This document shows positions 9,440-63,266 of a DNA stretch of 64,000 nucleotides, one piece after another. Source of the stretch: Sipunculus nudus (lineage: Eukaryota; Annelida; Sipuncula; Golfingiida; Sipunculidae); contig CM049319.1 of the NCBI GenBank assembly GCA_026874595.1, positions 58,536,917 through 58,600,916 of the forward strand, read 5' to 3'. How positions within the stretch are numbered: position 1 is the first letter of the stretch; the number at the start of each line of letters is the position of its first letter. The notes under the pieces are model-generated. The model had not been told where the DNA came from. It saw only the letters and a list, made by a program, of their open reading frames with translations, and did not search any database. A program made the translations under genes and the position numbers.

Positions 9440-9956
9440 ACTGGACTTGGTTGGCTTGATGTAAACATCACGTTACACGGTGTTTGAAAACCTGAATAAA
9501 AGCTTCCCTTTCACCAATTCCTTTCAAATTTCAAATTTTATTTGCTTATCAGTCCATCATGTGAAAATAAAAGCGAACGTATATACAAGATTAACATGTG
9601 CCATATTCAAAGTTGGTCCAAATTTTAAGGTTATGATTTTATATTTATGCTTATAACTTTAAAAATTACAACATTTTGATCTTATTTCTCGTATACAATT
9701 ATAACTATGTTGAATATAGATATATGCTTGAAATAAGCTCTCTAGCTAAACCAGTTACCATGTTAAGTGAGTAAATATATTTCCTGATTTTTGACAAAGT
9801 GCATTATGGTTAGGGCTCATAACTTCAAAGATTTATGCAATGTCGACCTAATTTCTGGCATGGAAATATATGCAGGAATGGCAGTTTCAGATATGAATAG
9901 ATTAATAACAACAGTTTGCATAGTGGGCAGTTTAGGAGTGTAACAACCTTTTTTTT
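9440..9956 (+). repeat. Hairpin-ended repeat family, 3'-truncated copy
   Basis: Matches the copies at 47.7-48.24 kb and 61.7-62.2 kb through GTGTTTGAAAACCTGAATAA, CATGTTAAGTGAGTAAATAT and TTTGACAAAGTGCATTATGG. It stops at GTGTAACAACC, directly beside the inverted hairpin at 9957. Confidence 0.7.
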
Positions 9957-9989
9957 AGCTCAGCTGAGTGAAAGTCATCTGAGCTATAG
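9957..9989 (-). repeat. Left inverted terminal hairpin
   Basis: AGCTCAGCTGA and TCATCTGAGCT pair with one mismatch around a 7-base loop. This is the reverse complement, with small differences, of the 3' hairpin seen at 23055, 48438 and 63131. A run of T precedes it. Confidence 0.75.
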
Positions 9990-10029
9990 CGATCACCCTT
10001 TGTCCGTCGTCCGTCCAGCCGTCCGTCCG

Positions 10030-11070
10030 GTTGTCCGTTAACAGGGCACAAATTGTAACCACTGGACCTAGAATATTCTTACTTAACATCCAAGGAGGTC
10101 TATAAAAAATCACCTTGGTAACCTGAAATTAGGTCTCTGTTACCCATATACTCCGAGCTATAGGGCTCAGATGTACTTCTTAGAATAATAAAAAAAAACT
10201 GATACAAAAACTTCAGTTTCTGAACAAGTACATTGATCACCATGATTCTTTGCATGCATATACATTACAGAGTGTTTCATCAGTTTCTACAGACTGGTGG
10301 CTCCACCTGTATTTTTCCGAATTTTTACACATTTTATTCTTTATTTTCAGACCTTTCAATAAAGCCTCATCTGTTAGCAGGGCACAAATCTTAACTGCTG
10401 GACCTAGAATCTTCATACTTCACATCTAGGGAGGTCCATGAAAGATCTCCGTGAAAACCTGAAATTAGGTCTCTGTTAACCAATATTCTCTAAGCTAAAG
10501 GGCTCAAAAATATTCCTTAGAATAATAAAAATTATATTCAAAAACTCTAGTATCTGAAAAACAAGTGCATTCATTACCATGATTCTTTGCATCATGGAGT
10601 GTTTTATCGGTTCCTGCAGACTGGTGGCGCCACCTGGATTTTTCACAGAATTTTTAGGCATTTTTTTTCTCTAATTTTGAGACTTTCAAAGATGCTGTCA
10701 CCATTTATTAGGGCAAAAATCTTAACCATTTGACCAAGAATCTTCTCACTTGACATCTAGGGAGGTCCATGAAAATTTTTCCTAGGAAACCTCAAATTAG
10801 ATCTCTATTACTCATATTCTCCAAGCTATTGGACTTTTAAGTAACCTCCAGATTAATTTAAAATTTGATATAAAAGCTTCAGTATCTGAATAACTAATAC
10901 ATTTATTTCCATGATTTCTTGCATACATATTGAGTGTTTTATCAGTTCCTGCAGACTGTTTGTGTCACCTGTATATTTTTTTAAATATTAATGTATTTTT
11001 TTTCTCTATTTTTGAGAGGTTCAAATGAAGAGGTTTTCTGTTAACAGGGCACACATTATGATGTTCCAGT
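10030..11070. repeat. Three tandem ~335 bp units plus start of a fourth
   Basis: The phrase (A)GGGCACAAAT-TTAAC-GGACCTAGAATCTTC recurs at about 10036, 10376 and 10707, and its start again at 11043. Each unit repeats the same body: a GGAGGTCCATGAAA box, a GGTCTCTGTTA box, CCATGATTCTTTGCAT, and the near-palindrome GGTGGCGCCACC. Related fragments lie at 21830-21930, 30600-31010, 42050-42200 and 48500-48760. Confidence 0.75.
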
Positions 11071-11079
11071 TATTGGCTT

Positions 11080-12300
11080 ATTGTTAGTTCATTTTTAGCA
11101 CTTAACAGATTGGATCAGTGCAATATCAGTAATGTATTACCAGTTTGGATGAAAGCTCAGTGAAAGAGAGGACATATCAATGAAGAAGTGACAAAAATTA
11201 ACGGGGCTGTCACTCTATTTGAACAAGAGGCAAACAGACAGAAGAAAACTGACCATACTCAGAACTGCTGATGGTACACTCAATAAATGAAGGACAGCTT
11301 GGCCCTGATGCACAGGACTATTATAAAAAAATGACTTGCCTTAATGAGTTATGTGCTGGCTTGTGTTTTCACTTTCAGACATATGTCCTTAGTGCACCTT
11401 ACTTATAACATAAGGCATATTCTTTGTAACATTTTCAGTTGCAAAGATTTGATACAAATGCTCTGAAACAAAATATTGTTCACAGAATAGTTAATTTTTG
11501 TATATTTAAGGTCTTCCTTGGACATATGAGGTGTTATGTCTACCGGATTATGAAAAATGATCATTATATTTCAATATACAAAAATGAAAATAATAATTAT
11601 GTAGAAATATTAAAACACAAATGGTTCTCTGTACCACAGTAGATGTTAGGCTGACTTGTATTCCTAGGTGACATCATGGTAAATCAGAGCTTTTGTTGAA
11701 GTTGCCATGCATCTTATATTATTGAATAAAGTTTTTTTTTCCAATATTGGATTTTGGTTATCATGTCTATCTCCATTTTGTTTCCTCAAGTTAATATAAA
11801 CTGGATATGGATCACATTGTTCCCTGCAAAGACCATATCCATAAATACATGCAGCTATGCTGTGATGTAATTATATTGATGTTTATATTTAACATATATG
11901 CCCAGAATGTTATATTATGTGATGCTGTACAGACAAAATAAAAGATGATAAGTGAGATGATAAATATATCATGTTTCATCAGCCAGAGTTAACTCTCAGG
12001 AAATATTTCTTTTTAATTACCTGCAATAATTGCTTCTGTTTCCAAATATATTATAATTCCGAGTATTTTCAAACTATGCAGTCATTTTAATAATTATTTT
12101 AAAAAATATTTTTGAAACCACTAAAACATTTGATTATCATATGGTTCTGATTTGCCTCATTGGACTTTTTATCACATAGGAACATCTGGTTCAGTTACCA
12201 AAAATAACTGTTCAAGTGGATAGCTTTATGACATATCATAATATTTATTTTTAAATTATGTAACAAAAATGCATTAGTACTCGTAACATGCAGGTTAGCC
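11080..12300. other. Element interior without recognisable gene
   Basis: AT-rich sequence between the tandem units and a GC-rich block. A + strand frame at 11439-11642 (67 codons) shows no recognisable domain. I see nothing else supportable. Confidence 0.3.
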
Positions 12301-12310
12301 CACAAGTAAA

Positions 12311-12734
12311 AACTGGTTTGTCCCAAGCGAAGCCAAGCCAAAGAAAGTTTACGCTCTTCGAGCAGCCACAGGTTGCTGTGGTCAAGACCTCAGCCCTGTG
12401 CGCTCCTTAAGCACGTTCTCCGAGCCAATAGACGCTATGCCACACCAAGCCAAACAGAGAGCCGCAAAGGCTGCCACCGTCCATCCCGAGTCGGTGATCT
12501 ATTCAGGAAAGCTGCAGCATCCACAGCCGCAAAGCCAGAAGCAACCTGCATTCCCTCTACCGATCCCAGCAGCGGAGACCAAGCCATATGCCATTCGAGG
12601 GCCGAACCCGATCTTGTGAACGACAGTGTTTCGAGACGCAACGCCTTTATACTTGCGGTTTGGCCATTGGACCGTATGACCAGTTTCCCAGTCATGCTAG
12701 CAAGTTCTTTCGACATCGGCAACTGGTTTGTCCC
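12311..12734. repeat. GC-rich block flanked by 14-bp direct repeats
   Basis: AACTGGTTTGTCCC occurs exactly at 12311-12324 and 12721-12734. The sequence between is much richer in GC and CpG than its surroundings. It is open for 95 codons on the minus strand (12722-12435) and 121 on the + strand, but neither reads as a known protein, and it does not match rRNA or snRNA cores that I recall. It may be an insertion with a target-site duplication, or a fragment of a foreign repeat. Confidence 0.45.
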
Positions 12735-15065
12735 TTAGGCATGCATTTTCTGGCTTCCAATCTTCGACATCCATGTTTTAGTCCGCACTTACATTTAGTT
12801 TCTAACTTGGGCACACCGTGGCGCTCGAGTTCGCCTAGGCACAACTGTGGCACCAGCATTGAATTAATATGATATAAGTAATTTTTTCACGTTAACCTGG
12901 GTTTTTTTGTTTTGTTTTTTTTTTTAGAATTTTGCGAGTTGTTGCTTGATATATTGGTATTATTACGAATTATTTTCCAGTAACTGAACATGAGACGTCC
13001 GACACATGTTTCGGTATTGTTCAATGTTATAACACCCGACATCAAGATTTTAGTCGAGGCGGAACTTCAATATCCACCAGAGGTCACTACCGATACGCTA
13101 ATATCATATGTGAGATAAATAAATATTTCAGGGAAGTTGCTGAAAGTTGGTCGTACATTTCATTTGACATTGATGATCAGGTTAATGCATATAATTGATG
13201 AATGAATGCCACAGACAGTGGAATATCAAACTTATTCAATATATCGTAAACATATACATTCATCATTCATATTTTATGTAACAACTTTGTCTTAAATATT
13301 TAGTAGCTTTAAAATATTTATCTAATAAGAACGCTTCACGGGTTATCAATCAGGACCGCGTGAGTGTCCATGACAACTGGCTTGATCATGCATTCGGATT
13401 GAATAAGTTGGAGTAAGTCTACTGGAAACTCAGGAGTTGCTTTGTGCGCCCGTCTCTATGATTGGCTGGGAGACCAATATAGAGCGGCATACCAGTCTAG
13501 GTTCTAAATGTGATTTGGCGGGACAATCGTCGTATCGAGTTAGTGCACAAATATATATCTAGCGAACTTTTCAAAGAAAACTTGGTTTGGACAGCATGTT
13601 ACAGCAGTGAACTGCTTCGCTGACTCGTGTACAGTCGTACTCAGTGAACAGTGACATACTTTGTCTCATTTGGATTTTATTTGTGGCTAATTGAGCAGGT
13701 GTGAACAAGGTGAGTGTCTTTTAATTAGTTTGTTCAGCAGGGGTAAATTACATGTTACACTCATATTTTGCCTTTGGGGCCACAATGAAGACATCGCAGT
13801 GGATCTACCGAGAACCAAATGTCTGAATTAATCTGTTAATTGAACTCTAAAGAGATAATTTGTTGATAAAAAATGCTAGTAAAACTGAGATTGCTTATAA
13901 TCAGCATATTGTATTATTGAGAAGAATTACTTTTGTAAGACGGCAATGACTGCTTTCTTGGAGATAGGACATGTGTCATTTCCTATAGGCCTACCATAGA
14001 TATAATATTTTGTTAACTGTACAGTTTTTAGTGATGTCAAGATCGATCATTAGTTTATTTATTTGTTAATACTTGTCAGGAGTAGCTTTATATCATCATG
14101 TTTCTTAATGGATATATTGTTGTTCATAAAGCATGTTACAGTGTATTTCTTGAAGTGAACTGGTAAGGATCAAGCTTGACCACAGGTCTTAAGATTACAA
14201 AAATATAAACTTCCACATAACTATATAATAAGTGAACTTGTGTAGTCTTATAAATGTGTCACATGTAATACAAGTAATGCTTCTCCATGTTCTTCCCTGC
14301 AGAAACAGTTCTAAAACACATTTGCCAGTTGCATTTTTTTGCAAAGCATTTCTGGTTGGCCCAACTTATAAATAAAAAAAAAATGAGAATGAGATATTTT
14401 CTTCGCAATAGTTCAGTGCACTCTAAAATTGTTATCCTCTGTCTAAGTAAAACTTCTAATAGTGGTTAGCTTTATTTGCAGGTTGGACCTCAGTGTTATA
14501 AGCTGTATTCATTGTAATTATTTGCTACATTGTTCATTTTTATATACATTGTCCATCTTTTATATTCAATTCATAATCAATATTTTCCCATACTGTAATA
14601 TATTTTTATTTATCTTTTCAGATACCTGTGAGGGTTTGAATAGAACCCACCAATATACAAAACAAGAAGCAAATCCAGATAAAAAAACAGATAAGAAAAC
14701 CAGTTATAAAAACCAGATTAAGGATAACCAGATTAAAAAAAAACTAGATCAAAACCAGATAAAAAACAAGATAAAAACACAAGAGCAAACAAACGAGCAG
14801 ACAATCCTGAGAAAACAAACAATACTGAAGTAATTAAAAAATTGTCATTTACTGAGTTTGAGTTTGTCATTTATTTCCATTTTATGAACTCTGTTTCATC
14901 AAGGCATCCTCACCATATCCTTTGCAACTCCCTAGCTACTCTGATATTGCTTTCACTATCATTACCAGTTTCATAAAATATTTTAAATCCTGATCCTGAC
15001 TTATTCAGCATGGCGCAGCTATACATGCCCCTAATGTATCTGTCAATAAGGTTGTTAGAGGCACT
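12735..15065. other. Helentron 5' region; possible leader exon and basic ORF
   Basis: No domain is recognisable. A possible spliced leader is visible: GAACAAG|GTGAGT at about 13705-13716, and an acceptor TTTTCAG|ATACC at about 14621. After that acceptor a Lys/Gln/Asn-rich frame runs to 14833. Whether this is the leader of the element's gene is inference. Confidence 0.25.
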
Positions 15066-15620
15066 TTTCACCAAGGTGATCATCAGTTTCCATTTGAGTC
15101 CATTGGAAAACAATGTTTGCCTAATTCAGTTGTTGCTCTGCTGTATTCTACGTTTTTTTTTTATGTTACTGAATGGAAAACAAGTGATATGGATACAATA
15201 TTAATTGAAGGTGATCATTTGTATAGAAAATTGATGTCAGATATCCTAGATAAAGGGTACATGGCATGGGATGAAATACCAGAGTATTTACAATGTCTTG
15301 ATCTATTACTTCAAGATAAAGCCAACCGTGATCACCGGTGGTTTCCTTAATCATTCTGATGTGCAAGCACCCTATATGTTTCACACTGATGCTTTGGCAG
15401 AGATCACTACCAAGAAAATGGGCTTTTAATAGTAGGAGGCGATGCAATTGCAATTTCATTTCACAAGAATTGTTAGTTTGTGTTTGATCCTCATAGCAGA
15501 AATCATCTTGGCTATCCCTCGCCATGGGGCACATCTGTTCTTCTGACATTTGAAGGCTAATCAGAATTCTTCCAATATATATCAAACTATGCAAATTTGA
15601 TGAAAGTGACTGTCTTTGAA
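15066..15620 (+). pseudogene. Helentron N-terminal cysteine-peptidase-like domain (broken)
   Basis: Read across at least two frame changes and stops. Block 1 (15066-15350) has FHQGDHQF, then GKQCLPNSVVALLYS with Cys at 15114-15116, then DMDTILIEGDHLYRKL. Block 2 (15328 on) has GGFLNHSDVQAPYMFHTDAL. Block 3 has LLIVGGDAIAISFHKNC, then FVFDPHSRN with His at 15492-15494, then GTSVLLTFEG. The order of an early Cys-Asn motif and a late Asp-Pro-His-Ser motif is that of papain-like peptidases of the OTU or tegument-deubiquitinase type, which occur in some Helitron-like elements. Family assignment is by motif memory and so moderate. In-frame stops at 15348 and within block 3 make it non-functional. 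Confidence 0.55.
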
Positions 15621-16560
15621 GCAACATATTTCAGAATTACTCAAGTCACCACTAAAGCATTTAAACTTGGACTGATACGGCAAACTAAAAAGTCAGCCAA
15701 CTCGCGTCATCTGGCAGTGCATGAAACTCCGTCAACCACAAACCCCCTGGATAAATCAAGAGAAAGTCCAGCTTCAATTGGGAATGTTCCTGACGAAGGT
15801 GTTCACTTGATTCAAGAATATTTTAAAGATCAGCAGCAAAAATTGACAAGAAAACAATATATGAAAGAGTACATGTGCAAGAAAAGAATGGATCAAACTC
15901 AAAGGAACAAAGAACGTTTAAAAGACCAACAAAGGAAACAGCTATCAATCAAGATAAAACCTACAAAGAAAAAGAACTGTCTGCACAAAAAGCATATAAC
16001 CAGAAGATAAGGAAAGATGAGGTTCGAAGAGCACAAGAAAGAGAGGCTGAGAAACAACAAAAGCAAATTGTCAGAAAAAAAGGAAACTTACAGACAAAAA
16101 GAACGTTCTGATGAAAAAGCATATAAGCAGAAGACAAGGTGAGTTTCGAAGAGCACATGAGAGAGAGGTTGAGAAACATAAGGAGAAAGTTGCTAAAAAA
16201 CGAAATTTACAGGCAAAAAGACTGTTCTACTGAAAAAGCATATAACCAGAAGATAAGGAAAGATGAGGTTCGAAGAGCACATGAGAAAGAAGCTGAAAAA
16301 CAACAGAAGCAAACTGCTCGACAAAATGAATCATTTAGACAAAGGGAACGTCTCAGAGAACCGGCCTGTAAAAAAGGAAAAAGGCTGAAGATGATTTTCT
16401 TAGAGAAACTGAGAGACTCGCTAAAAGGAGAAAAAGAACTTATCTGTTACATAGGAGAACTGAGACCACAAGAAACACTGCCACCAGGGCACAAAAAAGA
16501 ACTGGTGAATCATACAGACACAATGAAAAGGCAGCTAATCTTAAGAGAAAACAGGGTGTA
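15621..16560 (+). pseudogene. Helentron basic coiled region with tandem units
   Basis: Lys/Arg/Glu/Gln-rich sequence spread over three frames (for example 15597-16010 and 16139-16561), with RKQYMKEYMCKKRM and KAYNQKIRKDEVRRAHEKEA. At DNA level a unit of about 125 bp (AAAGCATATAACCAGAAGATAAGG … TTCGAAGAGCACA … GAGAAACAACA) occurs at about 15981, 16108 and 16231. Such basic repeats are usual ahead of the DUF6570 and Rep regions. A frameshift between units shows decay. Confidence 0.6.
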
Positions 16561-17170
16561 GATCTGACAGAATGTATAAAGAAATGTCATACTTCAATAT
16601 CTGAAGGTCCAATAAATGCCTGTTGTTGTTGTAATCAGACATGGTTCAGGCACTCGATAAAAAAATCTGATAACTGACCAGACAGAATAGATCCTACTTT
16701 CCTAGCAACACATATTACCGTTGTAAAATCGGTGGACAATAAACAGTGGTTATGCACAACTTGTCTTGCAGCTCTCAAATGCCACAAGACGACTCCAAAA
16801 CTCTCTGTATCAAATGCAATGCAGTTTCCAGGAAAAAACACCTGAATTGAATTTGTATCCCATAGAAGAAAGGCTTGTTGCATTACGCATATCATTCATT
16901 CAAATACGAGAATTACCTAGAGGTTCACAGTTGTCACTGAAAGGATCATTGGTCAATGTACCTACGCATAGTGAAACAACAGTGAATATGTTGCCATGTA
17001 CATCAGATTCCACTTCAACCATACCAATCAATTTAAAAGGTAAACGTGAGTGCAAAAATGTAGCCTGCACCAAAAATGTACGTCCAGCTGTTATACTTAC
17101 TGCACTTCACTACTTGTTGAAACCTAGTCAGTTGTATAAAGATGCCAACATTACAATAAATAGTGACTGA
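16560..17170 (+). pseudogene. Helentron DUF6570-like zinc-binding domain (frameshifted)
   Basis: One frame gives a zinc-knuckle-like start (INACCCCNQTWFRHS … WLCTTCLAALKCHK … NAMQFPG). After a frameshift near 16840 the next frame (to 17170) gives ELNLYPIEERLVALRISFIQ, then LPRGSQLSLKGSLVNVPTHS and VRPAVILTALHYLL. The series of Cys pairs, then ELxxxEERLxxxRxxFxQIRxLPRG, then VNVP, is typical of the DUF6570 region next to Helitron Rep proteins. A stop after SDN at about 16675 and the frameshift break it. Confidence 0.7.
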
Positions 17171-17199
17171 CTTCAAACTTTCAAAAATTCACAAGAGCA

Positions 17200-18864
17200 T
17201 GAACCTCTTTACAAAACTGACCATTCAGTGTATATAGTGATGAGGACCATTTTGAAGAAATACCTGAAGATGAACAAGGAGGAATTCTAGATACCATGCT
17301 TGATGAATCTGAACTCACAGGAAATGACATTATATCAGTAGCCCTTGGAGAAGGACAGAAGCCTTTGAGTCTCTTTCAAGACGAAGATTCCGAATATATG
17401 TCATTTCCCTCAATATTCTATGGACAAAGGGACAATAGAAAATGCTGAAAGAAAAACCTTCTGTTCATTACAGTGACATTTGCAAATAGGAACTCAGGTC
17501 ACATGATCGCAGAGTTGCCGTAAATGTTCCAAATCTTTTCTACAAAATAAAGAAATTACAAATAGAACAAATTACAGGAAAGTTTAGCCCAGCAATTCAT
17601 CGAATCAAAACTAAGAAGAAGAAATATTCCGTCAAGGGTGTCATGAATGAAAGCAAAGTTCATGAGTTGACGAGGTTGGATCAGGGCTACAGAATATTCA
17701 GGTCCATACGAGGCTCTCTTCCATATTCTGAAGCACGTAAAAAAGACTTTATTTGCAATGATTAGACAACTAGGATTGCCATCATGGTTTATATCTCTAT
17801 CAGCTGCAGACACACATTGGGATGACCTACTGATCATCCTTGGTAAACTGATTGATGGCAAAACTTATTCAAGTGATGATATCAGGCAAATGGATTTGGT
17901 GAATAAAACACGCTTGGTTAAGGCAGATCCTATAACCTGTGCGAGGTTTTTTTGATCAAAGAGTTCATTCCTTCATTCAAACCATCTTACAGAGTGCACA
18001 TTCACCTCTTGGAAAGCTTAAAGATTTTTTTACAGAGTTGAATTTCCGCAGCGTGGCTGTCCACATGTTCATATGCTTATGTTGTTTAAAAATACACCCA
18101 TATATGGTCAACATGATCGTACTGTCACCAAACACATTGATGAGCATGTTATCTGCTCCAAAAATGATGAGGACCATGAAGATCTGATAAGTCTACAAAC
18201 ACAAAGACACTCCAGGTCTTGTAGAAAGAATGGAAAGCCAATTTGTCATTTTAACTTTCCATTACCACCCATGCCAGAAACTAAAATCCTCGCACCTAAT
18301 GAGATTGAAGTTGGTGAAAAACTTTACCAGAAGATCTCTCAGGCACTCGCAAGCTTAAATGTTGACAATGACCAATCATTTCATGATTTCCTTAACTCTC
18401 TAGGACTCTCTCTAGATGAATACTACATGGCCTTGCGTACTTCTATTAAAGGTCCATAAGTATTCCTCAAAAGGTCACCATCTGAAATGAAAACAAATGG
18501 ATACATGAGACTTTTGTTTACTGCATGGAAAGCAAACCATGACCTTCAGTTTATACTTGATCCTTATGCATGTGCAATATACATAGTTTCCTATGTTAGT
18601 AAAAGTCGAAGGGGAATGAGTGCTTTGTTAGATGCCGCCTGCAAAGAAGCTAGAAAAGGGGGAAAAACAATCCGGCAGCAGGTGAGAGATATGGGAAATC
18701 AAATTTTAAAGGCTGTGAAAATAAGTGCTCAGGAAGCAGCATATTTGGTATTTCAACTTCCAATGACAAGAGCTACCAGGGATGTAATATTTGTACCCAC
18801 TGCCCCTCCAGATGAAAGAACTTTTCTACTCAAGAGTAAAGAACAGCTTGAACATCTCCCATAA
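17200..18864 (+). pseudogene. Helentron HUH Rep nuclease (Helitron_like_N), frameshifted
   Basis: Rolling-circle initiation nuclease of Helitron type. Visible in order: ALGEGQKPLSLFQDEDSEY (about 17340), LPSWFISLSAADTHWDDLL (17776 on), ADPITCARFFDQRV across a frameshift near 17945, then EFPQRGCPHVHMLMLF with the HUH-type HVH at 18064-18072. Next comes YYMALRTSIKGP, broken by a stop at 18457, and DPYACAIYIVSYVSKS with two tyrosines at 18580-18582 and 18592-18594 spaced as in the Y2 active site. Catalytic residues survive, but the frame breaks at least four times, so no single protein is possible. Confidence 0.8.
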
Positions 18865-19492
18865 GATTCAACTGACATAGCAGCAAATAATATCATTGAC
18901 AAATATTCAAAGCGCCCAAAAGCATTTGAAAATTGGTGTCTGGCTGACTTTGCATCTCAAATTAATATAAATTACCCCTCAGAGGGAGAAGCAGATGCAT
19001 TCCATTACAACAGGGATGATGATAATGTCAGTGGTCAAAATGAAGCAAATGCTGATGTAAACACAGGAGAAAAGCTCAGTGTCACTTTACCTAATGGTAC
19101 ATGATACACTCGAAGACAAGTTCCAAGAGTTCTTCGATATGTTCGTTATACTGAGAAAATAGACCCGGAAAACTGCTTTCGTGAAAGGCTACTTTTGTTC
19201 ACATCGTGGAGCGATGAAACAAAAGACCTTTTAAATGGTTCACTCACATACTCGAATCAAAATACGAAGAAAAAAAAATACAAATTGAATTAAAAGGAAA
19301 ACAGTATGAGCACAATGCAGATGTTCTACAAGAAGCACAGGAACAAGCTGAGCATGGCCATGAAATTAAATATGCACATATAGCTCCTACAACAGAACAT
19401 GCAGAGAATGAAGATGCAATTCAACACCCAGTTTCCAGTGGAGAATTTGCTTTTTTGACCCAGAGAGGTCAGATCATCTGAGAAACTATGAT
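18865..19492 (+). pseudogene. Helentron Rep-to-helicase linker (broken)
   Basis: Frame fragments such as FENWCLADFASQININYPSE, then VPRVLRYVRYTEKIDPENC and RERLLLFTSWSDETKDLL match the linker between Rep and helicase in Helitron proteins (RRVLRF, PE-FYRELLLLFxPWR pattern). Stops and frame changes interrupt it. Confidence 0.55.
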
Positions 19493-20545
19493 ATGACAAC
19501 TGATCTTGGACTCCCACCAAGAACCACTGCAAAAGAACCACTAACATTGCCTGGTAGAATACCCGATGGCGAGTACAAACAGTTAATACAGGGTCTAAAT
19601 GAGAAACAACTCACAGTCTTCAAACACATCATCAAACATGTAAAATGTTCAACAATACCTTTACACTTTACCTGACAGGTGGGGCAGGTGTTGGAAAATC
19701 AGTTTTGCTCATAGCCCTCTCAAGCCTAGCATCGTCACTTATGTGGGACTGAAGGTGAGAATCCGTTTGACTGCAAGATATTATTTACAGAACCTACAGG
19801 AAAGGCTGCTTACAATGTTCAAGGTTCCACTCTGCATAATGCTTTTCGAATATATCCAAATAAAGGATTGATTACAGAAAAATTGTTATCTGACATCCTG
19901 AATACACTGCGGACACAGTACAGGCACCTTCAGATATTAATGATTGATGAAGTAAGTATAGTAGGAAACCGCATGTTCAATTTTGTAAATTTGCGGCTCC
20001 AAGAAATTAAAGGCAACAAAGAACCATTTGGTGGCATCCATGTAATTGTGATTGGAGAACTCTTTCAACTTCAACCAGAAATAGACAATTCGATTTTCAA
20101 GAACTTGTCTGATAATTACCGACCTCTAGCACTCAACTTTTGGATAGACACTTTTCATATGTATGAGCTGAAATTATGCGGCCAAAAATAATCCAGTGTA
20201 CAAACACAACTAAAGTAATAATTACAGCAGTTGACAATAATTACAGTAGTAACAGATGTGACAGGTGATGTGAAGAAAGATGTACTTTCAAGAATACCAG
20301 ATAACCCATCAAAAACTTCAGGCCTGCTGAAAACGCTTCAGATTTGGTTTATCATATGATATCACCTGCAATGTTGCAGTTCAAGATTGAATCACTAACG
20401 GTTGTTCTTGTATATTGAAGAAAATACACTACCTGCATAGCAGATCTGTACCGAGTATTCTTTGGGTTCAGTTTGACAATTCAAACATTGGCTCAGACAC
20501 CAGAAGAAATTATCACGCCTTTTACACTCCAGCCATATCAGAAGA
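19493..20545 (+). pseudogene. Helentron PIF1-type helicase (broken)
   Basis: Superfamily 1B helicase that would unwind DNA during rolling-circle transposition. Frames give LNEKQLTVFKHIIKHVK, then LTGGAGVGKS (Walker A, 19672-19701) in another frame, FTEPTGKAAYNVQGSTLHNA, then LQILMIDEVSIVGNRMFNFV (Walker B) and VIGELFQLQP, where intact relatives have GDLxQLxP. A stop at 20189-20191 ends this block. Sequence from there to 20545 is scrambled, so motifs IV-V are lost. Confidence 0.8.
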
Positions 20546-21565
20546 ATGGGCTCCACTTTTTTCACCAAGCGCACATTTCACACAGGCAGGAGACATATAC
20601 TGGTAACTCAGTTCCCATTAAAAATTGGTGCTGCAAAAACAATATGGAAGGCACAAGGCAGTTCCCTTGACCAGGTGTTTGTCGATATGACAAGGACCAG
20701 AAAACTGAGGCATGCACATTATGCAGCATTGAGCAGAGCAAGAAATATGAATGGCTTGCATATATTAAATTTAGATGAAAAAAAAATATCAACTGATCCC
20801 CAGGTGACAAATGAAATGGCCAGACTGCGTAATGTTGCTAAACTTGCTCTTAATTTCATACCACCAACATCTGTACCAACTGATACACTCAAGACAGTAT
20901 ACCATAACACAAGATCTCTTCATTTGCATTTCAAAGATGTGATTTCTGATTGTCATATCCTTAATACCCATAACATTGCTTTGGCTGAAACACGTTTGTG
21001 TTCTTTGGATACTGATGAGTCGTATTCGATCCCAAATTTCCAGTTGATCCGAAATGACCATCAAATAACAGGTTCAACATGTCCATCAAAAATACCACAC
21101 TATGGATTAGCTTTCTATGTGCACAAAAACCTCTGCCTATTCATTCAAGTGCATCATCAGTCTAATGTTAACATTGATGCATCTGTATTATTGGTAAATA
21201 TTCCAAGGTCTTCCTTACAACTAATTAGTGTGTATAGATCCCCTCAGTCAAAACTGTCTGACTTAAAATCAAAGCTTTCCCAGCTTATGACACATGTTAA
21301 TATCCAAAAACCATTGTTAGTAATGGGAGATTTTATTATAGATATTAGTAAACAAAACAATATGTCAGCCTTGAATGATCTTTCTCATCTTTTACACTAT
21401 CAACAACATATAACAGAAAAGACAACTGATTCTGGCATCTTTATTGATCTGGTGTTTTCTAACTTCCCTGATGCTACAACCTCAACAGTAGAGGCTACAT
21501 GGTTTGATCATAAAGTTTTGTTCACTATTGTTCCAAAGAGTGTTTTCCAGTTTCCTCTTTATTAA
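20546..21565 (+). pseudogene. Helentron helicase C terminus fused to EEP endonuclease domain
   Basis: Longest open frame of the element (339 codons); the listed start is arbitrary because the frame is internal to a larger protein. Residues 29-75 hold the PIF1 C-terminal motif (AAKTIWKAQGSSLDQVFVDM … HAHYAALSRARNMNGLHIL). Residues 118-330 resemble an exonuclease/endonuclease/phosphatase fold as in non-LTR retrotransposons and Helentrons: YHNTRSLHLHFKDV, IALAETRL with Glu near 148, GLAFYVHKNL, LLVMGDFIID near 258-265 and WFDHKVL near 319-325. The usual GDFN reads GDFI here, so the metal-site Asn is missing. The direct fusion of helicase to EEP is the Helentron hallmark. Confidence 0.82.
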
Positions 21566-22400
21566 TAATTTTGATAAAAGTTCACAGTTACATTAAATCT
21601 AATTTCATAGTCATGGTATAAAATTTGATACTATTTTAGACAAACTTAAAATTACCCAAAATGAAATTGCTGTTGATATGGACAATTTGATGTCTTTCAT
21701 ATATTGTGCTAATGTGTAATCAAGACAGTGCACAAGACAGAAATCTCGCATTTGAGTAAGATACAGCTAAACAACTAGGAAATTTCTGATTAAGAATCTA
21801 TGCACATAATGCACAACACAGAAACTTCCAATTTGATTAAGATCCAGAAGGGTACCTCTAAAAATTTCTTGGAAACCTGAAGTAATGTCAGTGCCACCTA
21901 TATTCTGTGAGCTATGTGAAACTTATGAAGTAGTTACTTTAAATATTGGTAGTAAGGAAAAACCTGACATACACGTATCATCAGAGATATAAGAGATTGA
22001 TCAAGCCTGACTTTCAAACAGGTAGAGAAATGCTTTTTCCAGGAGTTAAATTAAAAAGGGAACTGAAGTAACCAGTCATTTAGCCTCCCCCATAATGTTT
22101 CATAAAGACCTGCAGTGGACAGTAATCATAATTCTTTGATATCACTCTGACTTGGACCTGCCAGTGCATTGTTATAAATATTGTTTAGATCATGATGTAT
22201 CATCTCATGTCAGATGAGTACTAACACATTTGATTTGCTCATCTCAGACTAGAACTAGTTAATCAATGTGATTTAGGTTAACAAAGATGCTTTTGTTTTC
22301 ACTAACATACTTTTCCTAACAAACAAGATTCCTAAGACTATGGAAAAAGTAAATTTGTGGCATTTAATAATATGTCAAATGTGTATGTTGTGAGACAAAT

Positions 22401-22456
<56 letters not shown>

Positions 22457-22640
22457 GTTCTCATATATTTTTTTATAGCGTCTATAACTGGTCCCTGCAG
22501 AGCGTGAGCACAGACTAGCCCAGACCTCTGTGCTGTGAATAAGACTTCACATCATCATATTTAGCTTGAAACATTGTCAGTCACATGCATCAGTAACTGT
22601 AAGTGATATGAGTGTACCTCCCCACCCAACCTGATATCAA
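21566..22640. other. Helentron 3' non-coding part
   Basis: AT-rich. A stretch at about 21830-21930 resembles the interior of the 335-bp units near the left end (GGAAACCTGAAGTAATGTCAG, TATTCTGTGAGCTAT). A (TA)n run lies at 22404-22452. No gene seen. Confidence 0.4.
22404..22452. repeat. (AT)n microsatellite
   Basis: AT dinucleotide run of about 49 bp inside the 3' part of the Helentron region. Confidence 0.95.
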
Positions 22641-22789
22641 AACAAAATGATTTTAGCACTCAGCAGTTGGACAAAAAACTTCTTACCAAGCATCTGGGGA
22701 CTTCCTTGTAAAATAGGTCACTGTAACCCATTTCTAAGAAATACTCATAAAATTCATGTTTTTTTTCGCACTCGAGCAGTCATTTTGCT

Positions 22790-23090
22790 CATTGTTCAAC
22801 AATCTTTGAATTCAGCTGGGCGTCATGGCCCATGGGCCACTAGTTACTTGAAAACGGAAGTTTTTCCTTTATTTCTCACAGGAACGAAGTCGCAGTGACC
22901 CAGTTTCAGGTTTGTGAGGAAAACTCAGGGACATCTAATTCTATGTCAAATTGTTGATTCGCAGGACTTGCAGTTTCAAAACGAGCCCTGTGAACGGACG
23001 GATGGCACGACGGCAAAACGGCCGCACGGATGACGGACAAAGGACCATGACTATAGCTCAGATGACTTATATAGTCAGCTGAGCTAAAAC
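22790..23090 (+). repeat. 3' end of hairpin-ended repeat family
   Basis: The last ~300 bp of the element match the 3' ends of the copies at 47.0-48.47 kb and 62.4-63.16 kb: GAACGAAGTC … GACCCA, then GGGACATCTAA, then a GGAC-rich run, GGACAAAGGACCA and the hairpin. Confidence 0.7.
23055..23085 (+). repeat. Right terminal hairpin
   Basis: AGCTCAGATGACT and AGTCAGCTGAGCT pair around a short TA-rich loop with one mismatch. A GGAC-rich stretch (22996-23042) precedes it and AAAAC follows. Confidence 0.75.
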
Positions 23091-26439: not shown

Positions 26440-27700
26440 TTTGTACATTGTGTAAGCTACAGCCTGATAAATCGCGAAAATGAAACCCTCGCGAAACATT
26501 GAAGAAGTGAAAACGTGAATATTTTACCTCGCAAAATGAAGCTAACAACAATATATTATTATGATAAGTGAAAAATGAAGATGAAGATAAGTTGAAAATG
26601 CTAAATTACCCCATTATTTATCCATAATTTGGCTCTTATAATATCATATTATGCATACTAATAGATTTAATTATATTTTGTATATCATTAATTTGTTAAA
26701 ACAATTTTAAAATTATATTTTTTAAATGCTTTATTACCACAACATGGCATTTTCAGGATTATTTCTTGAATTAATTTTCAAGAAATGTTTTGTACATTGG
26801 ACTGGAAACAACTTTACAATCAAGGACAGGCAATTCAAACAATAATAAATATTGCATTACACTTGATGTACATTGCTCTGTTTGTTTTATATTAGAATAA
26901 TTGTGTACCTGTGACAGCAAGGGTGCTCCCTAGGGATGCATTACTTATCAGGTAGTCAGGTAAAGTTGTATTAAATGACGTTCAGTGCCCAGAAGTAGGC
27001 TGCCTGGATCTTGACAATGCAAGCGAATACAGTAGAGCCTTAAAAACTAAGTAACTAGCCCGAATTTTGACCTTTTATTTTCAAATTTCAGATTTGAAAA
27101 ATAAATATATCCTAATGTGTATATGTGAAAATAAAACAGTACTTACAGAAGTCATGATGTCATGTGTCATGGTCAAATTTAAGTAAAGTTTAAGGTACTG
27201 ATTTTACATTAATGCTGAGAACGTTACACATTTACAAAATTCTGATCTAATTTCGTGTAACAATTAAATCTTGATTAAATAAAATTATATCCTTGAAAAG
27301 TAGTATCTCATTTCAACAGTTACCGTGCCAAGTATCAAAATATATTTCTTGTTGTTTTGATAAGGTACCCTATGTTCCTTCCCACAACTTTTACAAATTA
27401 CACAATACTGAGCCAATTTCTAGCACGTATATGGGTAATCTTCAGTGGAATAATAATGCTAAATATGAATTAAACAGATGAATGGTTTGGAAATTAGGCA
27501 GGCCTGTAGTGTAAAAATAAGTTTAATTTTTTATGGAATTTTTTATCAGTTTTTCGAAGGAACTAAGTGACCTAGTTAAGAGTTTGGTAGAACATTAGAG
27601 ACATCTGAATGAATTTTGTATTCGTAGGTCTAACGGTTTCAGAACGTGCCAGTCTAACGGACGGACGGACAGACGAACAGACAACGGACAATGAACCATT
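26440..27700 (+). repeat. Hairpin-ended repeat family, long copy lacking the hairpin
   Basis: Starts with CGCGAAAATGAAACCCTCGC, ACCTCGCAAAATGAAGCTAA and CCACAACATGGCAT, shared with 46.99-47.2 kb and with the window end near 63.9 kb. It runs through the shared body to a GGACGGACGGACAGACGAAC run at 27656-27690 but lacks the terminal hairpin. Confidence 0.65.
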
Positions 27701-29439: not shown

Positions 29440-30300
29440 TTTGAAGCCAACCTGTCTACCAAAACTGGAGTTATCATCCATAAACTAATTTGTGAATGGA
29501 TCGGCCCTGTGACCTTGACCTTTAACCTATTGACCCCAGAGTCAAAAGGAAACTTCCCCTACTGTCTGCTGTGCCACACGTGGAAGGCAAAAGGTTTGCG
29601 ATGAAAAGTTTCACTTAAAATGCATACACAATCTTTTCAATTAAGTGGGTCCTGTGGCCCTGACCTTTGATCTCATGACCCCGGAATCAACTTACTTTAG
29701 GGGTGGGCCATATATAAGTCAAGTCTGAAACCAATAATTCAATCCAAACTGATGTTATCATCTGGAAACTAATATGTGAATAGATAGCCTCCGTGAACCC
29801 GACATTTGACCTTGTGACCCCAAAATATGTTTCGTCCACTATTGACAAGTGAGCATTATCTGTATGATGGAAGGTTTCGGTTGAAAGATTTGGCTTAAAA
29901 TACATCCATAATCTTTTTAAAGAAGTGAGTCCTGAGACATTGACCTTTGACCTCATGACCCCAAAATCAATAGGGTTTTTATATTATTGGAGGTTTATAT
30001 ATATTAATCAAAATTTAAACCAATATGTCTATCCAAACTGGAGTTATCATCAGGAAACAAATATGTGGACAGATGGTCCCTGGGAACTCTGACTTTTGGA
30101 CCCCTAAATCAATCAGATTCTTCCCCCATTGGCAGGTAACCTATATGTGCAAGATGGACGATTTGGGAAGAAAGATTTGGCTTAAAATGCATCCAAAATC
30201 TTTCAAAATAAGTGGGTCCTGTGATCTTGACCTTTGACCTCATGACCCCGAAATCAATAGAGTTCTTGCATTAGAGGTGGGCCATATATAAGTCAAATTT
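29440..30300. repeat. Array of ~145 bp monomers rich in AGGTCA half sites (copy 1)
   Basis: TGACCTTTGACCTCATGACC-like boxes at about 29511, 29661, 29799, 29938, 30088 and 30225, roughly 137-150 bp apart. Boxes alternate between CTCATGACCCC and CTTGTGACCCC forms. Intervening text (AGTCAAGTTTGAAA, GGAAACAAATATGTG, AAGATTTGGCTTAAAATGCA) repeats too. The same array occurs at 40.87-41.8 kb. Confidence 0.85.
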
Positions 30301-30599
30301 GAAATTCACATGTCAAACCAAACTTGAGTCTACTTCAGGAAACAAATTTGACGGACATACAGCTAGACGAACAGGGTAAATAATATCAGGCATCCGTTTT
30401 TCAAGCGGGGCCCTAATGGACACACAAGGTCACAGATGAAACCCAATCGCATATCTGAAATTATCAATATAATTTGTCAGTCTCAAAATAAAGGGGGGGG
30501 GGGGGGGGGGGAAATGCAATAAAAATAGAAATAAATATACCTGAGGTGCCACCATTAATCAGAAACTAAATTAACCAATCATAAGCAATAAAGACACTG

Positions 30600-38770: not shown

Positions 38771-41700
38771 CTGAACAAGAGGATTGAATTAAAGGATTTC
38801 CATTTATATTAAGTAGGGCTGTGTTATGCCAGGCAGCCTGCTAGACAAACTGATTCACAATACAGGACGGCAATATGCAAATCAGTTTGCGAACCTTTTG
38901 CCCTGTAAAGTTCATTGAAAGGAATAAAAAAATAATCCCGTGCACGTTGATTAATGTGTATTAAATTATATTTAAAAATAAAGTACCAATGTACTTTGTT
39001 TGTTGTTTTACAGTTTTCTATTTCAGCATCATCTGAGTCATTTACTATGGCCACTGAACAAGCATCAAGCCAGGTCAAACCTATCAATAAAATGCTTGAT
39101 ATAGGTTTCTCAGAAGATTTGTGAACCGCAAATTTTGCAGTAGGCGAATATCTGTGCTCAGATTTCATGTACAGATTGAGAACTCTCAAGAGCTAAGACA
39201 TTCTTTACAGCCCTAATATTCAGGAAGCATCCAGGGCAAAACACCCACATTCATAATAAATCAAACAGTTGTTTCAAATTCATGCTAGAAAAATATAAAT
39301 CACTGTAATCCTTTCCTGCTCAAATTATTCTAGATTTTGGACAAATTCTGACATCATTACATATATATTACATGTACCATCTTGCTCATTTTTAATAGTA
39401 CCTTTACAAAATTTTCATTGGTCATTACAGAGAGGGTTTGCAATAAATTGATGGAAATCATTAGAACTGAAAATGAATATGCAATATGTTTAGCATTTGG
39501 ACAGTGGAGTGGGTAGTAGAGGTGAGTATCAGTCAGCCCATTTACGTATTGTGATATACTTACAACGATACCAGATACATATTGCCCATACCTGTCATTT
39601 TTCTTTGTGTATCATTTCCGATTTAAAGCTATGTGGATAAAGTTTTTTTATAAACAAATAAAAAACCTGTTATATTGGACTATCATTGCTCACATGCGCT
39701 GGCATTGAGACAGAACTATGTACATTCCTCATCCAGTTGACAATATGTGATCCTTTCAAGTCATGAAAGGTAAATATGAGAGCTAAGAAGCAGCTTCGGT
39801 TTTAAAATTAACTCAGATTATAGTTTAGGGTAGGGTTGTATGATTTGTATCTATATTAGTGAGCAGTTTTTTTGTGTGTTTCATCAGTGAGATGATACAG
39901 CATGCATAGCGTACCAGTAACTGTATTCATGTGATAAATCTTCTGTATAAATATATCTGTTTATTGATACAGCCCTAGTAACAAGCTCAACCTACCAATC
40001 TGACCAAGGTTGTTTCTAGAATGGCCAAGAGAAGGGGTTGTAGTGGCCTGTCCAAGGTTGGAGACATGACTTTATCTCAAATTTTTAATTCTATCACCTT
40101 TCTTAAAGCATGCGTTAAAAAATATTCTATTTCATTCTCCCTTAAGAAAGATTACAGTAAGAAAAAGAAATTTTGAATATAAAATATTGTTTTAGAGAAT
40201 TATGCTGTCTCTTTAAGATATCAATAGATCAGAATTAATAAAAAAATACTATTTTCAGCAGATGTGTGCCATTATTGAATCCTGAGGATATAATACACAG
40301 CCGGTAGTGTACAGGACATCTCCAGTATAGTAACACATACACACATAGTGTTATGGGACTTACCCTGTCTCCTTTTGATGGTATTACCGGCTCTAAATGT
40401 TCTGCTGCTACATTGACCACTTTGTCCGCTGCGGTGATATACAGGGAACACATACCTCCCTGAAATAATAAGTAAAACTAATTTTTTAATGAGTGTTTCA
40501 ATACATATTTTTTATAAACTAGGCCCATAATTATTAAATATAATTTAACCCAACAGATTAAAATAATTTATGATAAAATAAACAGATAAAATAAGTATCA
40601 TGATAGTAAACAATATATTTATTCAAACCAGTCACTTCTCTTGGAAAAATAATTTGTGAATATCAAGTTTTATTATATATATGAACTTGGAGTGGATTTT
40701 TGCCTTAGAATGGCCTGGTCACAAGGCATAACTAGACATTTCTTGGCACTGCAGGTGCAAGAGTATCCCCAATATAGTACGCCCCCCCCCCCCTTTAAGA
40801 ATAGGCCCCCATTTTTAGCAGCATATACTGACACTTGGCAAGCAATTATTGTTTCTTCCATATATCAATCCACAATCTTATTGAAGATGTTGGTCCTGTG
40901 ACCTTGACCCTTGACCTCATGACTCCAAAAATCAATTGGGGTCTTGCTTTTTCAATGGGACATATATAAGTCAAGTTTGAAATACATATATTAATCCAAG
41001 CTTGAATTATCATCTCAGGAACCAATTTCTGGACAGATGGCTCCTGTGACCTTCACCTTTGACCTTGTGACCTCACAATTGACAAGCGTCTTCCTCTATT
41101 GGCAGGGAAACTGTATGTGCAAGATGAAATGTCTGAGATGAAATGTTCGGCTGAAAATGCATCCACAACCTTTTTAAAGATGTGTCCTGTGACCTTGACC
41201 TTTGACCTCATGACCCCAAAATCAGTTCGGGTCTTGCTTTTCCAACGGGACATATAATAGTCAAGTTTGAAATCTATACATCAATAAAAGCAGGAATTCT
41301 CATCCAGAAACTAATTTTTGGACAGATAGCTCCTGTGACCTTCACCTTTGACCTTGTGACCTCAAAATTGATAGGGTTCTTCCTCTCCTGGCAGGTGAAC
41401 TATATGTGTAAGATGAAAGATCTGAGATGAAATGTTTGGCTGAAAATGCATCCACATCTTTTTAAAGATGTGTCCTGTGACCCCAAAATCAATTGGAGTC
41501 TTGCTTTTCCAATGGGACATATATAAGTCAAGTTTGAAATTAATACATCAATAAAAGCAGGAATTATCATCCAGAATCTATTTTTTTTACAGATAGCTCC
41601 TGTGGCCTTGACCTTTGACCTTGTGACCCCAAAATTGATATGGATCATCTACTATTGGCAAGTGAGCTATAAGTACAAGATGGAAGATCTGGGATGAAAA

Positions 41701-44700
41701 GTTTGGCTTTAAATGGATCCACAATATCTTTAAAGATGCAAGTCCAGTGACCTTAACCTTTGACATCATGACCCTAGAACCTATAGTGGTGGGCCAGACA
41801 TAAGTCAAGTTTGAAATCCATATGGCTAAAAACACTGGAGATATCATAAGAGGTGTGTGATTTTCACCAAAAATGGAAATATTAAAGGTCAAGGCCACTC
41901 TCATGGTAAAGGTCATGATCCAAAATTTAAATAGACCTCATCCCATAACCCATCTCTCTACATGTTCATAATATGAAAGAAATCTGTCAATTAGTTTTTG
42001 ACTTATAATGCTCACAATACTGTCAAGTGGCAATTATTTGGGTATTAAAAGGTGTATAATCAGGAAAAGGATAACAGGTGGCACCACCAGTTTCCGGCCT
42101 GTCACAAGGCTTTCCAAGATCTTCGGTATAAATGATTTATGGACCAGTCCATTCAAGCTTTCTTGAGATATTTAAGAATTTGTGTTATTTTTAGCAAAAA
42201 AAGGACCTATTCAAGGTCAAGGTCACTCTACTAGCAAAGGTCATGACCCCATTTCAAATAGGCTTCGTCCTCTTACCTATATCTATACAAATGTAAAGTT
42301 TGAAAATGATCAGTGAAATATTTTTTTAGTTATCCCGCTCACAAGATTTTTCTGCGGCGGTGGTAGCGGCAGCAGCGGGACAGTCGTGAAACCATAGAAC
42401 AGTTGTGACTTGATAATCCGACACTAAATGTAATACCCTTATTTATGTCGGATTGCAAGGCTGTCGGATTGTCAAATCCATAAATGTGATGGATGGTCAC
42501 AATACATTGTGACCTGAATGTTAAGAGGACTTGTTAGTATTCATTAAATATTTTCTTATAATAAACTACGTATATGATATTGTTATGATTTATGTGAATA
42601 AGAAAATAAAACATCCGTCATGGAGTACTGTTTTATTTCTTATATACATGTCTATATACACAAAGCTAGTCAAGATTGACGACCTATGCAGATTCTTCCA
42701 TTATGAGATATGATTATATTTCTGAACAAACTTTAAATAAATGTATATAATAAATGAACCATTGGTTAATCTACTTAGCTCATGTACGTCTTAAGAATGC
42801 AAGCATATCTGTCTGGTATCCTGTTCTTTTATTTTTTTCATTTTCACAGACTTTTCTAAGCGGTCGGCATCAATGTTCCCTACAGCGAAGCCCTGCTCCT
42901 CCATATACCGTAGTCCTGTTTTTATCCCCCTAATCGTGTCTCTGGGAGTTATTGGTTGAGGAGGACATCTTCTCCCTCAGACTCGCTGTCACTTTCGCCT
43001 CCGTCTTCTTTGACCATTGACACAATATCAGCGGGCGTCAGCATTGCTTCCGTGGGCTCCATGCAGTCAAAAGCAAGGTATTCCTCCATGGTCAACCATG
43101 TTGAGTGCCTAGACAACCTCGTTCACCACCTCCGCGTATTTTACACATGGAGAAGTACATACGGATCCAAACTGACTTAACTGGTGAGCAAAATTGACTC
43201 AATAATTGGCTCTAGTGTACAGTTAGAACAATACGCATCGCTGGATTTCACGCCTGATTGATCAGGGGTGTTGTGTGCACGAGCCCAACGACTGACATCA
43301 AAGGACCATTTTCAGGTCGGACTGTCAAGTCAGAAAATACGTTGGTATCCTAGTTTGTGTTGGGAAATGTCATGTCGGAGTCGCAATCCAAGGCTGTCTG
43401 TTTGTCAAGGCTAAGTGCTATGGGTCCCGTTCGTTTTTTACATAAAACCATCGGATTGCAAGGTTTTCGGATTGTTAAGGGTTGGAATGTCAAGTCGCGA
43501 CTGTATCCCGACTTTGTCTGGGGATACAATAAATCTTCCTCAATAAATAAAATTTAAACACTCTTGGCAACAAGTGACACAGACTGTGTTTCAGAAACAC
43601 ATGCTTATAAATACCTATTTAAACAACTGTCAAAAAGGGTCAAAATATTTAATACTATGAAGAAATGATTTTTGAAAATCCAAGATATAGGACAGTTATT
43701 TTTACCAGGATGAAAATAAGATCTAATTCTGGCTCCAGAAACATTTTATTGAGATAACATGACATGCAGAAAAATAATTGTACTTTGTAACTATTTTTTT
43801 TTTATTGTTTTTGTGATATGAATACATAAGTTTGTATGAAACACATTACTTACAGAGATTCCTCTGACAACACCGATTTCATGTATAAGAGCTGGATCGT
43901 CATGCGACTCTTTGACTTTGACTTCTATTTCTGTAGCAATCCAGTCTCCTGCTCCCATGTCCATTCCTACAACATCACCATACACAGTTCTCTTATTTTG
44001 TATGATACATTTCCTAAATTATGGTATTTGAGCTAACTTAATTTCCTCTGCTAACAAAGTGTCCTCAAATGTTTTCAAAAGAGTTCAATGAAATTTTGTT
44101 GGAAGGTGAGCCACTGGCCAAATTTGGGGGCACTTATCTAAGCAAGGATCTGGACTTGGAGCCTGGTGATGGTGGAGGTATGTGCTCTCTGACTGCTTTT
44201 AAGCTATTAATGTATCTTTCTAAAATATTCTATGTAAATTGAATTTACTAGAACAGCAGATATTCACATGTGGACCCTTAAGTATTTATAAGAGGTGATC
44301 AAGTTAGATATTCACTTGTTACTCATTTCTCTAATTTTAAATTGAAAGACTTTAATAGCATTTCCATGATTGGAATACAGATCACTTTTAAAAACATGTT
44401 TCAAGAATAGATGTCAGCAGCAGTAGAGACTGAGGTAAGTTCAAGGCACATTTGGATCAGTCTTGTGGTAAAAATGTGGACAAGGATTTGGGCATGGTTC
44501 AAAAAAGCATTATTCCACTCTAACCTTTGCCAAACTCTTCTGCAGATAGATTCTTGCCTGTACACTGTCCTTTGAGTAGTTGTAACTGTATACACATGAG
44601 TATCTAGCTATAAGCGATTCCCTTAAGAGATTTTTTTTAGTTTATTTGCAAGTCTTTTATTTTTGGCATGGTCCAAAAAAGCATTTTCTCACCCTAACCT

Positions 44701-61599: not shown

Positions 61600-62340
61600 T
61601 GTGGCTGGGCATTAGCTGCCTGGCTGCCCCAGTGTATGCTTCGCTCAAGCATGCATAATCTGATGAAAGGTCAACAAGGTCAACATACAGGTGACTGAAG
61701 AGGGGCTGGATTAAGCCTGGGTCTGACATGGTCTCATATAAACATTAATAAAAGCTACAATATTTGGCCAATTTCTTTCAGCTTTCTAAACTACAAAGAT
61801 GAAATCCTCATGTGTGCATGATATGAAAATTATATCAACAGTGCTCTCAGGAAACAAACGTGCCATGGTCAAAGTTGGGCAAAATTTAAGGTACTAATTT
61901 TATATTTATACTAATAACTTATAAAATTTGAAAAATTCAGAACTAATTTTTGGTATTCAATTGAATCTTGATTAAATAATGTTACATCCCTGAAAAAAAA
62001 TCTCTAGCTTCAGCAATCCTCTTGTTAAGGGAGTAAATATATTTCTTGATTTTTTAAAAAGTGCATTATGTTTGGGCCCATAACTTAAAACAATTACGCA
62101 ATACTGACATCATTTCTGGCATGTGCATAGCGAATGTATAGAAAAATATGTATATTATACATGATCAAAGTCAGATCAGTTGTTTTGATATTAGGCAGTC
62201 TTACAGTGTAACAATGGGTTTTTAATGGAAAAATGAAGTTTTTCATTAATATTTCAAAGGAATTAAGTCCTAGTGATAAAATTCTTGGCATGGTAGGGGA
62301 TTTTAGAGACATCTAACTGTATGCTAAATTTAAGGAACTG
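61600..62340 (+). repeat. Hairpin-ended repeat family, 3'-truncated copy
   Basis: Shares CAAAGTTGGGCAAAATTTAA, TTGTTAAGGGAGTAAATATA and GTGCATTATGTTTGGGCCCA with the next copy, which begins where this one stops (about 62340). Confidence 0.7.
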
Positions 62341-62369: not shown

Positions 62370-63163
62370 CAAACTGCATAACACTAGCTTGATGTAAACT
62401 TGATGTGACATGGTGCTTGAAAACTTTAATAAAATCTACAGTTTTTGATCAACCGGTTTCAAATTTTTGGTGTTAACAGACAAAATGCTAACAATAACAT
62501 GCTGTGAAAATTAAATCCACAGTACTTACAGGAAAAAAACGTGCCATGGTCAAACTTGAGCAAAATTTAAAGTACCAATTTTATATTTTTGCCAATATTT
62601 AAAAAAATTAACAGATTTTGATCTAATTTTTGTTTGGTATACAATTAAATTTTGATCAATTAAAGTTGTATTACTGAAAAAAGTCCCTACCTTTAACACT
62701 TTTGGTCTTAAGTGACCAAATATCTTTCCTGATTTTTTTACAAAGTCCATTATGTTTGGGCCCATAACTTTTTTAAATAAAATAATACTGACTTAATTTC
62801 TGGCATGTACATAGAAACAATATAGAGAATTATATTTATGGTTAATATGAAGAAAACCAGATGAGTGGTTTTGATATTAGGCAGTCCTGAAGTGTGAAAA
62901 TAGATTTCTAATAAAAAATTGAGGTTTTTCCTTAATATCTCGAAGGAACGAAGTCCTATTGACCCAATTTTCGGCATGGTAGAAGATTTTTGGGACATTT
63001 AACTGTATGGCAAATTTCAGATTCGTAGGTCCAATGGTGTCGAAATGTGCCAGTCTTACGGATGGACATCCGGACAGACGGACGGACGGACTGACATACG
63101 GACAGACGACGGACAATGGACCACGACTATAGCTCAGATGACTTATAGTCAGCTGAGCTAAAA
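62370..63163 (+). repeat. Hairpin-ended repeat family, 3'-complete copy
   Basis: Body as in the other copies, then a GGAC/GGACAGAC run (63056-63116), GGACAATGGACCACGACTAT and the hairpin at 63131-63159 followed by AAAA. Confidence 0.75.
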
Positions 63164-63266
63164 TACTGTATTTCCTGATCTGTTTATCCTATTCACCATA
63201 TTTGTGGTCATCTGAGCTAAAAATACTGTATTCCCTGATCTGTTTATCCTATTCACCATATTTGTA
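63148..63266. repeat. Two 60-bp tandem copies spanning a repeat end and its flank
   Basis: TGTTTATCCTATTCACCATA occurs at 63181 and 63241, exactly 60 apart. The duplicated unit begins inside the hairpin (GTCAGCTGAGCTAAAA or GTCATCTGAGCTAAAAA) and continues into host flank. Confidence 0.85.

Follow-up and report, generated by a model that had tools for sequence, protein, structure and literature searches.

Among the 64,000 nucleotides analysed here from the Sipunculus nudus genome (assembly GCA_026874595.1, contig CM049319.1, positions 58,536,917 to 58,600,916 of the forward strand; hereafter the window) lies a run of transposase-like reading frames broken by stops and frameshifts. Are these the remains of one rolling-circle transposon, and if so, where does it begin and end, and what has happened to it? 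We are very confident that the element at 9957 to about 22845 is a decayed, once complete Helentron with an N-terminal VTD deubiquitinase, and that it inserted into an older, inverted HINE and has decayed neutrally since. Relatives were sought throughout the genome (1.43 Gb in 153 contigs, the window lying on contig C14).

Pfam matches to fragments of the window give, on the plus strand, the order VTD-type deubiquitinase, DUF6570, HUH Rep, PIF1 and EEP (Table 1), which is the Helentron order that the initial annotation had read from the letters. Herpes_teg_N is matched at 15000-15350 (E 2.9e-4, 21 bits, under the cut-off of 25), Helitron_like_N at 17671-17955 (E 1.5e-6, at the cut-off, with the domain end from 18022 onward) and PIF1 at 19730-20191 (E 2.2e-10). 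The first block had been called simply a peptidase; it is present and can be refined to a VTD-type deubiquitinase, a domain already known in Helentrons, since the corresponding domain of the paralog L039 has a sole match among solved structures at E <= 0.01, namely 8ADD (E 9.7e-12), the VTD deubiquitinase of a zebrafish Helentron (DrT1-VTD2; PMC9741609, which like PMC4067079 and PMC7492417 below is cited for excerpts of the paper). Its Cys and Asp-x-His codons persist in the window despite the broken frame. The predicted survival of the HVH and of two Rep tyrosines holds, HVH and YIVSYVSK both being legible, and an FYR stands beside Rep motif 2; the tyrosines of YIVSYVSK would be the catalytic ones. 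The minisatellite inside the transposase frame varies in length among paralogs, and eight of the ten large indels there are multiples of 63 bp.

The helicase had also been said to continue unbroken into the endonuclease. It does so in one open frame of 362 aa (20477-21565): the helicase runs into EEP without a stop, because residues 36-126 of this frame match solved PIF1 structures at their C-termini (best E 2.1e-8), and the frame also matches Exo_endo_phos_2 (E 2.6e-5, 24.5 bits, under the cut-off of 27.4). EEP scores lie below the curated Pfam cut-offs in both the window and L039. As annotated, the EEP Asn is lost; GDFN reads GDFI in the window only, and all seven paralogs for which there are data retain Asn. 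The stretch missing from the helicase near 20187 is retained in all five other copies aligned across the site.

By profile search, with 150 of 195 candidates scored, the genome holds at least 143 Rep matches. Six of 20 loci drawn from this list (L015, L018, L020, L025, L027 and L028) belong to the window's family; L039 and L040 joined later, giving eight collinear paralogs. When seven blocks of the window were queried on these eight, every block found a match, except for the peptidase, unmatched in L018 and L020, and the helicase core, unmatched in L028. Because the blocks align collinearly with paralogs elsewhere in the genome, at 73-90% DNA identity, their order is not due to chance. The closest copy (L029, L027 and L030 taken together) matches throughout, indels aside, starting with base one of the 5' end and reaching the 3' end; over 6107 coding sites the identity is 92.2%. 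L039 holds Herpes_teg_N, DUF6570, Helitron_like_N, PIF1 and Exo_endo_phos (the last below cut-off) in a single frame of 2342 aa, whose match to the window's EEP frame ends at residue 338 of 362. The several frame changes between the blocks might suggest that Rep, helicase and EEP came from different elements united by nested insertion. This we regard as practically excluded: the blocks match the same loci collinearly, and L039, with all of them in one open frame, refutes it. The single Helentron lineage proposed at the outset thus stands.

At least 119 genomic matches to the PIF1-EEP frame were obtained (113 of 4975 first-look candidates scored), a locus in several pieces being counted once per piece; among the matches listed, the next best after the window itself are 84% and 86% identical. 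One match sits in an open frame of 2420 aa with a worn 5' end and repeat units in front; its 3' end was not found in the 2 kb behind the frame. The search for intact paralogs elsewhere, as the initial annotation had suggested, yields two long frames, of 2342 aa (L039) and 2420 aa. L039, L040 and L025 are mutually 98.7-98.9% identical, from which it follows that the family has probably moved recently.

When the window copy is set against the frame of L039, 10 of the 2160 comparable codons are stops, 24 indels have lengths that are not multiples of three and six have lengths that are, and two deletions remove 127 and 168 bp. The many frameshifts noted at first are thus real, although 24 is an upper bound because a repeat-rich stretch aligns uncertainly. 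Against the same frame, stops number 1-12 and non-triplet indels 5-20 in the seven other copies. Private differences, that is, changes in the window (or in L039) at sites where the other copies agree, were sorted by codon position, leaving out the repeat-rich residues 300-480. In the window they fall 60:62:73 on positions 1:2:3 (195 such differences over 4387 sites; p 0.47 for an even spread), whereas in L039 they fall 56:41:121 (p 1.6e-11), as would be expected of a lineage under selection. For Rep alone the counts are 16:16:16 in the window and 5:2:18 in L039. This contrast supports the neutral decay of a once complete element that the initial annotation had proposed. When the test was applied to the other copies, P27 (p 0.008) and P28 (p 0.0001) deviated from an even spread and P15, P20 and P18 fitted it; P25 and P40, near twins of L039, were excluded from the seven-copy comparison. 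Part of the element, such as the open PIF1-EEP frame, might instead have persisted for a period as a gene of the host. The frame is indeed open over 362 aa, and its private substitutions (5:8:11) lean slightly to the third position, without significance (p 0.32); but the substitutions are spread evenly over the whole coding part and the EEP Asn is lost, and we consider such retention very improbable.

The initial annotation had bounded the element at 15066 and 21565. This holds for the coding part (about 15.0-21.57 kb), but the Helentron itself spans 12.9 kb, from 9957 to about 22845, its 3' limit being uncertain by a few bases. Its 5' end can form a DNA hairpin (-8.2 kcal/mol, z -2.9), and the L029 copy begins alike (L029:280), with the same subterminal inverted repeat (subTIR), arm and microsatellite; 3' ends of equal kind are found in L030, L015, L020 and L025. 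Judged by their sequence, both ends are of the kind published for Helentrons and HINEs (PMC4067079, PMC7492417, in the excerpts). Outside them, the flanks on the left (9445-9956) and on the right (22846-23090) are neighbouring pieces of one minus-strand HINE. All four aligned HINE copies of the window (47718-48471, 61724-62331, 62391-63168 and 27079-27698) run across the site without a Helentron, and the site itself consists of oligo-T, where nothing apart from the Ts is duplicated. Since the Helentron interrupts a HINE that is uninterrupted in these four copies, the host HINE is older than the insertion.

A 51-nt inverted repeat (9972-10022 and 23018-23068, 84%) was at first taken for the ends of a larger unit of 13.1 kb with terminal inverted repeats. 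The repeat is real, and the L020 copy too bears an inverted HINE 5' end behind its own 3' end (L020:9291-9570), at the same HINE column as in the window. The left flank, however, continues the HINE of the right flank, and the four aligned copies read through the site; L027, L015 and L025 have no match to 22875-23090 in the 1.2-2 kb behind their 3' ends, and the HINE piece of L020 resembles two other copies (0.811 and 0.808) more closely than it does the window's (0.758). Because the flanks form one inverted HINE with empty-site copies, the repeat at 9972 and 23018 represents the 5' ends of two different elements; the 13.1-kb unit, dropped once this was clear, is largely refuted and quite unlikely. 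By the same token the frame of 9.9-23.1 kb suggested for searching is too wide on the right, because 22846-23090 belongs to the host HINE. The shared column in L020 led us to consider site-specific insertion into the HINE as a possibility; against adopting it, no HINE match was found in the flanking sequence examined to the left of L020, and two copies make no rule.

Several observations weigh against reading 9957 to about 22845 as a typical Helentron. The 3' palindrome folds no better than shuffled sequences (z -0.04), and the 5' and 3' subTIRs, compared by eye, agree at 9 of 11 positions in the window and 10 of 11 in L029/L030. Helentron Rep motif 2 is described as having F/Y-x-R ahead and a Ser between G and P (PMC4067079); in the window copy Cys stands in place of this diagnostic Ser of GSPHxH, whereas the codon is Ser in seven of eight paralogs and Pro in L028. 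The codon test has low power for EEP alone (window 2:6:8, p 0.17; L039 11:7:15, p 0.23). Lastly, a search ahead of the ORF for an RPA gene or other cargo showed no RPA gene: three of the five window ORFs (open reading frames) of at least 90 aa in 11060-15000 were scanned against Pfam and gave no match, and the L029/L027 copy has no ORF of that size there. Ahead of the coding frame, ORFs of at least 110 aa number two in the L025 copy and one in the L015 copy. The insertion of about 410 bp in this region gave no Pfam match in the three ORFs scanned.

Table 1. Features of the decayed Helentron and of its insertion site (window coordinates)
Feature	Position	Strand	Remarks
Whole decayed Helentron	9957..22845	+	5' end common to L029; 3' end kind in L030, L015, L020, L025; empty site in 4 HINE copies
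5' end	9957..10036	+	subTIR AGCTCAGCTGA 9957-9967, short loop, complementary arm TCATCTGAGCT 9975-9985, GTCC microsatellite
Three 331-bp tandem satellite-like units	10037..11060	+	Tandem Repeats Finder (TRF) period 331, 3.0 copies
Insertion of ~410 bp	12311..12734		missing from closest copy (L029/L027); 14-nt direct repeat AACTGGTTTGTCCC at 12311 and 12721
VTD-type deubiquitinase (Herpes_teg_N)	15010..15820	+	stops and one frame change; Cys and Asp-Pro-His codons retained
Lys/Gln/Arg-rich minisatellite	15879..16475	+	period ~119-124 bp in window; inside transposase frame
DUF6570	16727..17170	+	Pfam E 1.6e-11
HUH Rep (Helitron_like_N)	17490..18864	+	HVH and YIVSYVSK retained; interrupted
PIF1 helicase	19412..20760	+	deletion of ~168 bp near 20187
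EEP (AP-type) endonuclease	20760..21565	+	GDFN changed to GDFI
Degenerate piece of 331-bp unit, behind ORF	21837..21915	+	E 3.6e-6
3' end	22812..22845	+	subTIR-like TCAGCTGGGCG, palindrome GGCCCATGGGCC, ACTAGTT
Host HINE, inner part, left of insertion	9445..9956	-	70.6% to 47718-48246
Host HINE, 5' part, right of insertion	22846..23090	-	74% to 48249-48470; hairpin -12.7 kcal/mol, z -6.9

The domain content, the ends, the empty sites, the open-frame paralogs and the even private substitutions together support a history in which a complete Rep/PIF1/EEP rolling-circle transposon entered an older inverted HINE at its oligo-T stretch, after which point mutations, frameshifts and deletions accumulated in neutral decay. 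By analogy with the known family, Rep would nick and join single strands, PIF1 would unwind, EEP may help in cutting the target, and the deubiquitinase may protect the transposition proteins.

The host HINE and the Helentron have in common the 11-nt 5' subTIR, the arm and the GTCC microsatellite. Minus-strand 3' ends of the CAGCTGAGCG...CATGGG...CTTGTT kind occur in the window at 60503 and 46009; they are likely the ends of the HINE copies at 63.2 and 48.5 kb. The three 331-bp units ahead of the coding part are represented by about six at the corresponding place in the L029 copy; the weak piece behind the ORF recurs in L027 and L025, two of the four other copies compared, and was not found in the remaining two, L020 and L015. 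From the common subTIR, arm, microsatellite and kind of 3' end, and from the units flanking the ORF, we propose tentatively, and at somewhat less than an even chance, that the genome's HINEs have their autonomous source or partner in this Helentron family. Loss of the ORF by deletion between 331-bp units would directly leave behind a HINE that has an array at its centre. How autonomous Helentrons relate to HINEs was left unresolved in the oyster study (PMC7492417, in the excerpts); a single genome that holds a coding Helentron whose ends are defined, an empty site and relatives with open frames makes the origin of satellite-carrying HINEs testable.

Elsewhere in the window, HINE-type 3' ends (a palindrome, then CTTGTT-like bases) were noted on the minus strand at 60503, 46610, 46009 and 29373. 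GACCTTGACCTTTGACCTC is found in arrays of 287-bp and 267-bp units at 29614-30347 and 40868-41774; as a guess, these arrays are perhaps the centres of other HINEs. A 27-bp tandem repeat (56583-58391; 67 copies, 91%) has on its minus strand an open frame of 543 aa with a nine-residue repeat. Outside the window, L003-L009 (e.g. C7:31573500-31583499) form another Rep family of several similar copies with frames up to 2250 aa. Between DUF6570 and Rep these carry a putative OTU-like stretch, judged by eye from its motif; L009 has no match to the window's PIF1-EEP frame.

How does this element compare with known systems? A canonical Helitron, with 5' TC, 3' CTRR, insertion between A and T and no EEP (PMC4067079, as excerpted), was rejected, since EEP is present and the ends differ; Helitron2, with asymmetric terminal inverted repeats and, by the same excerpts, no endonuclease domain, was likewise rejected on account of EEP. 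The element has a Rep with HxH and two tyrosines, PIF1 downstream, EEP fused at the helicase C-terminus, ends with subTIR, arm and palindrome, and a T-rich insertion without target duplication. It resembles the Helentron of PMC4067079, so far as excerpted, in having Rep/PIF1 and a C-terminal EEP in one frame, FYR beside Rep motif 2, a 5' subTIR with inverted arm, a 3' subTIR with palindrome and a T-rich target, and differs in that the window copy is broken, shows no RPA gene and carries 331-bp satellite-like units; tandem repeats are mentioned there for some HINEs. VTD domains are reported in Helentrons of vertebrates, insects, cnidarians and molluscs (PMC9741609), and a Herpes-tegument-like deubiquitinase with Cys and Asp-x-His stands in the transposon frame here too. 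Unlike the Helentrons of that paper's excerpts, the L039 frame has no match to OTU (Pfam, E <= 0.01), and the deubiquitinase here is predicted from sequence. The decayed Helentron is thus a further member of an already known kind and, as a fossil, ordinary; what is new are its ends. With the Cg_HINE of the Pacific oyster (PMC7492417, excerpts) it shares the left subTIR with inverted repeat and GTCC-like microsatellite, the right subTIR with palindrome, and central satellite-like units; the GTCC-type HINEs would likewise be similar to those of bivalves. Unlike the oyster case, here the coding copies themselves bear such ends and units.

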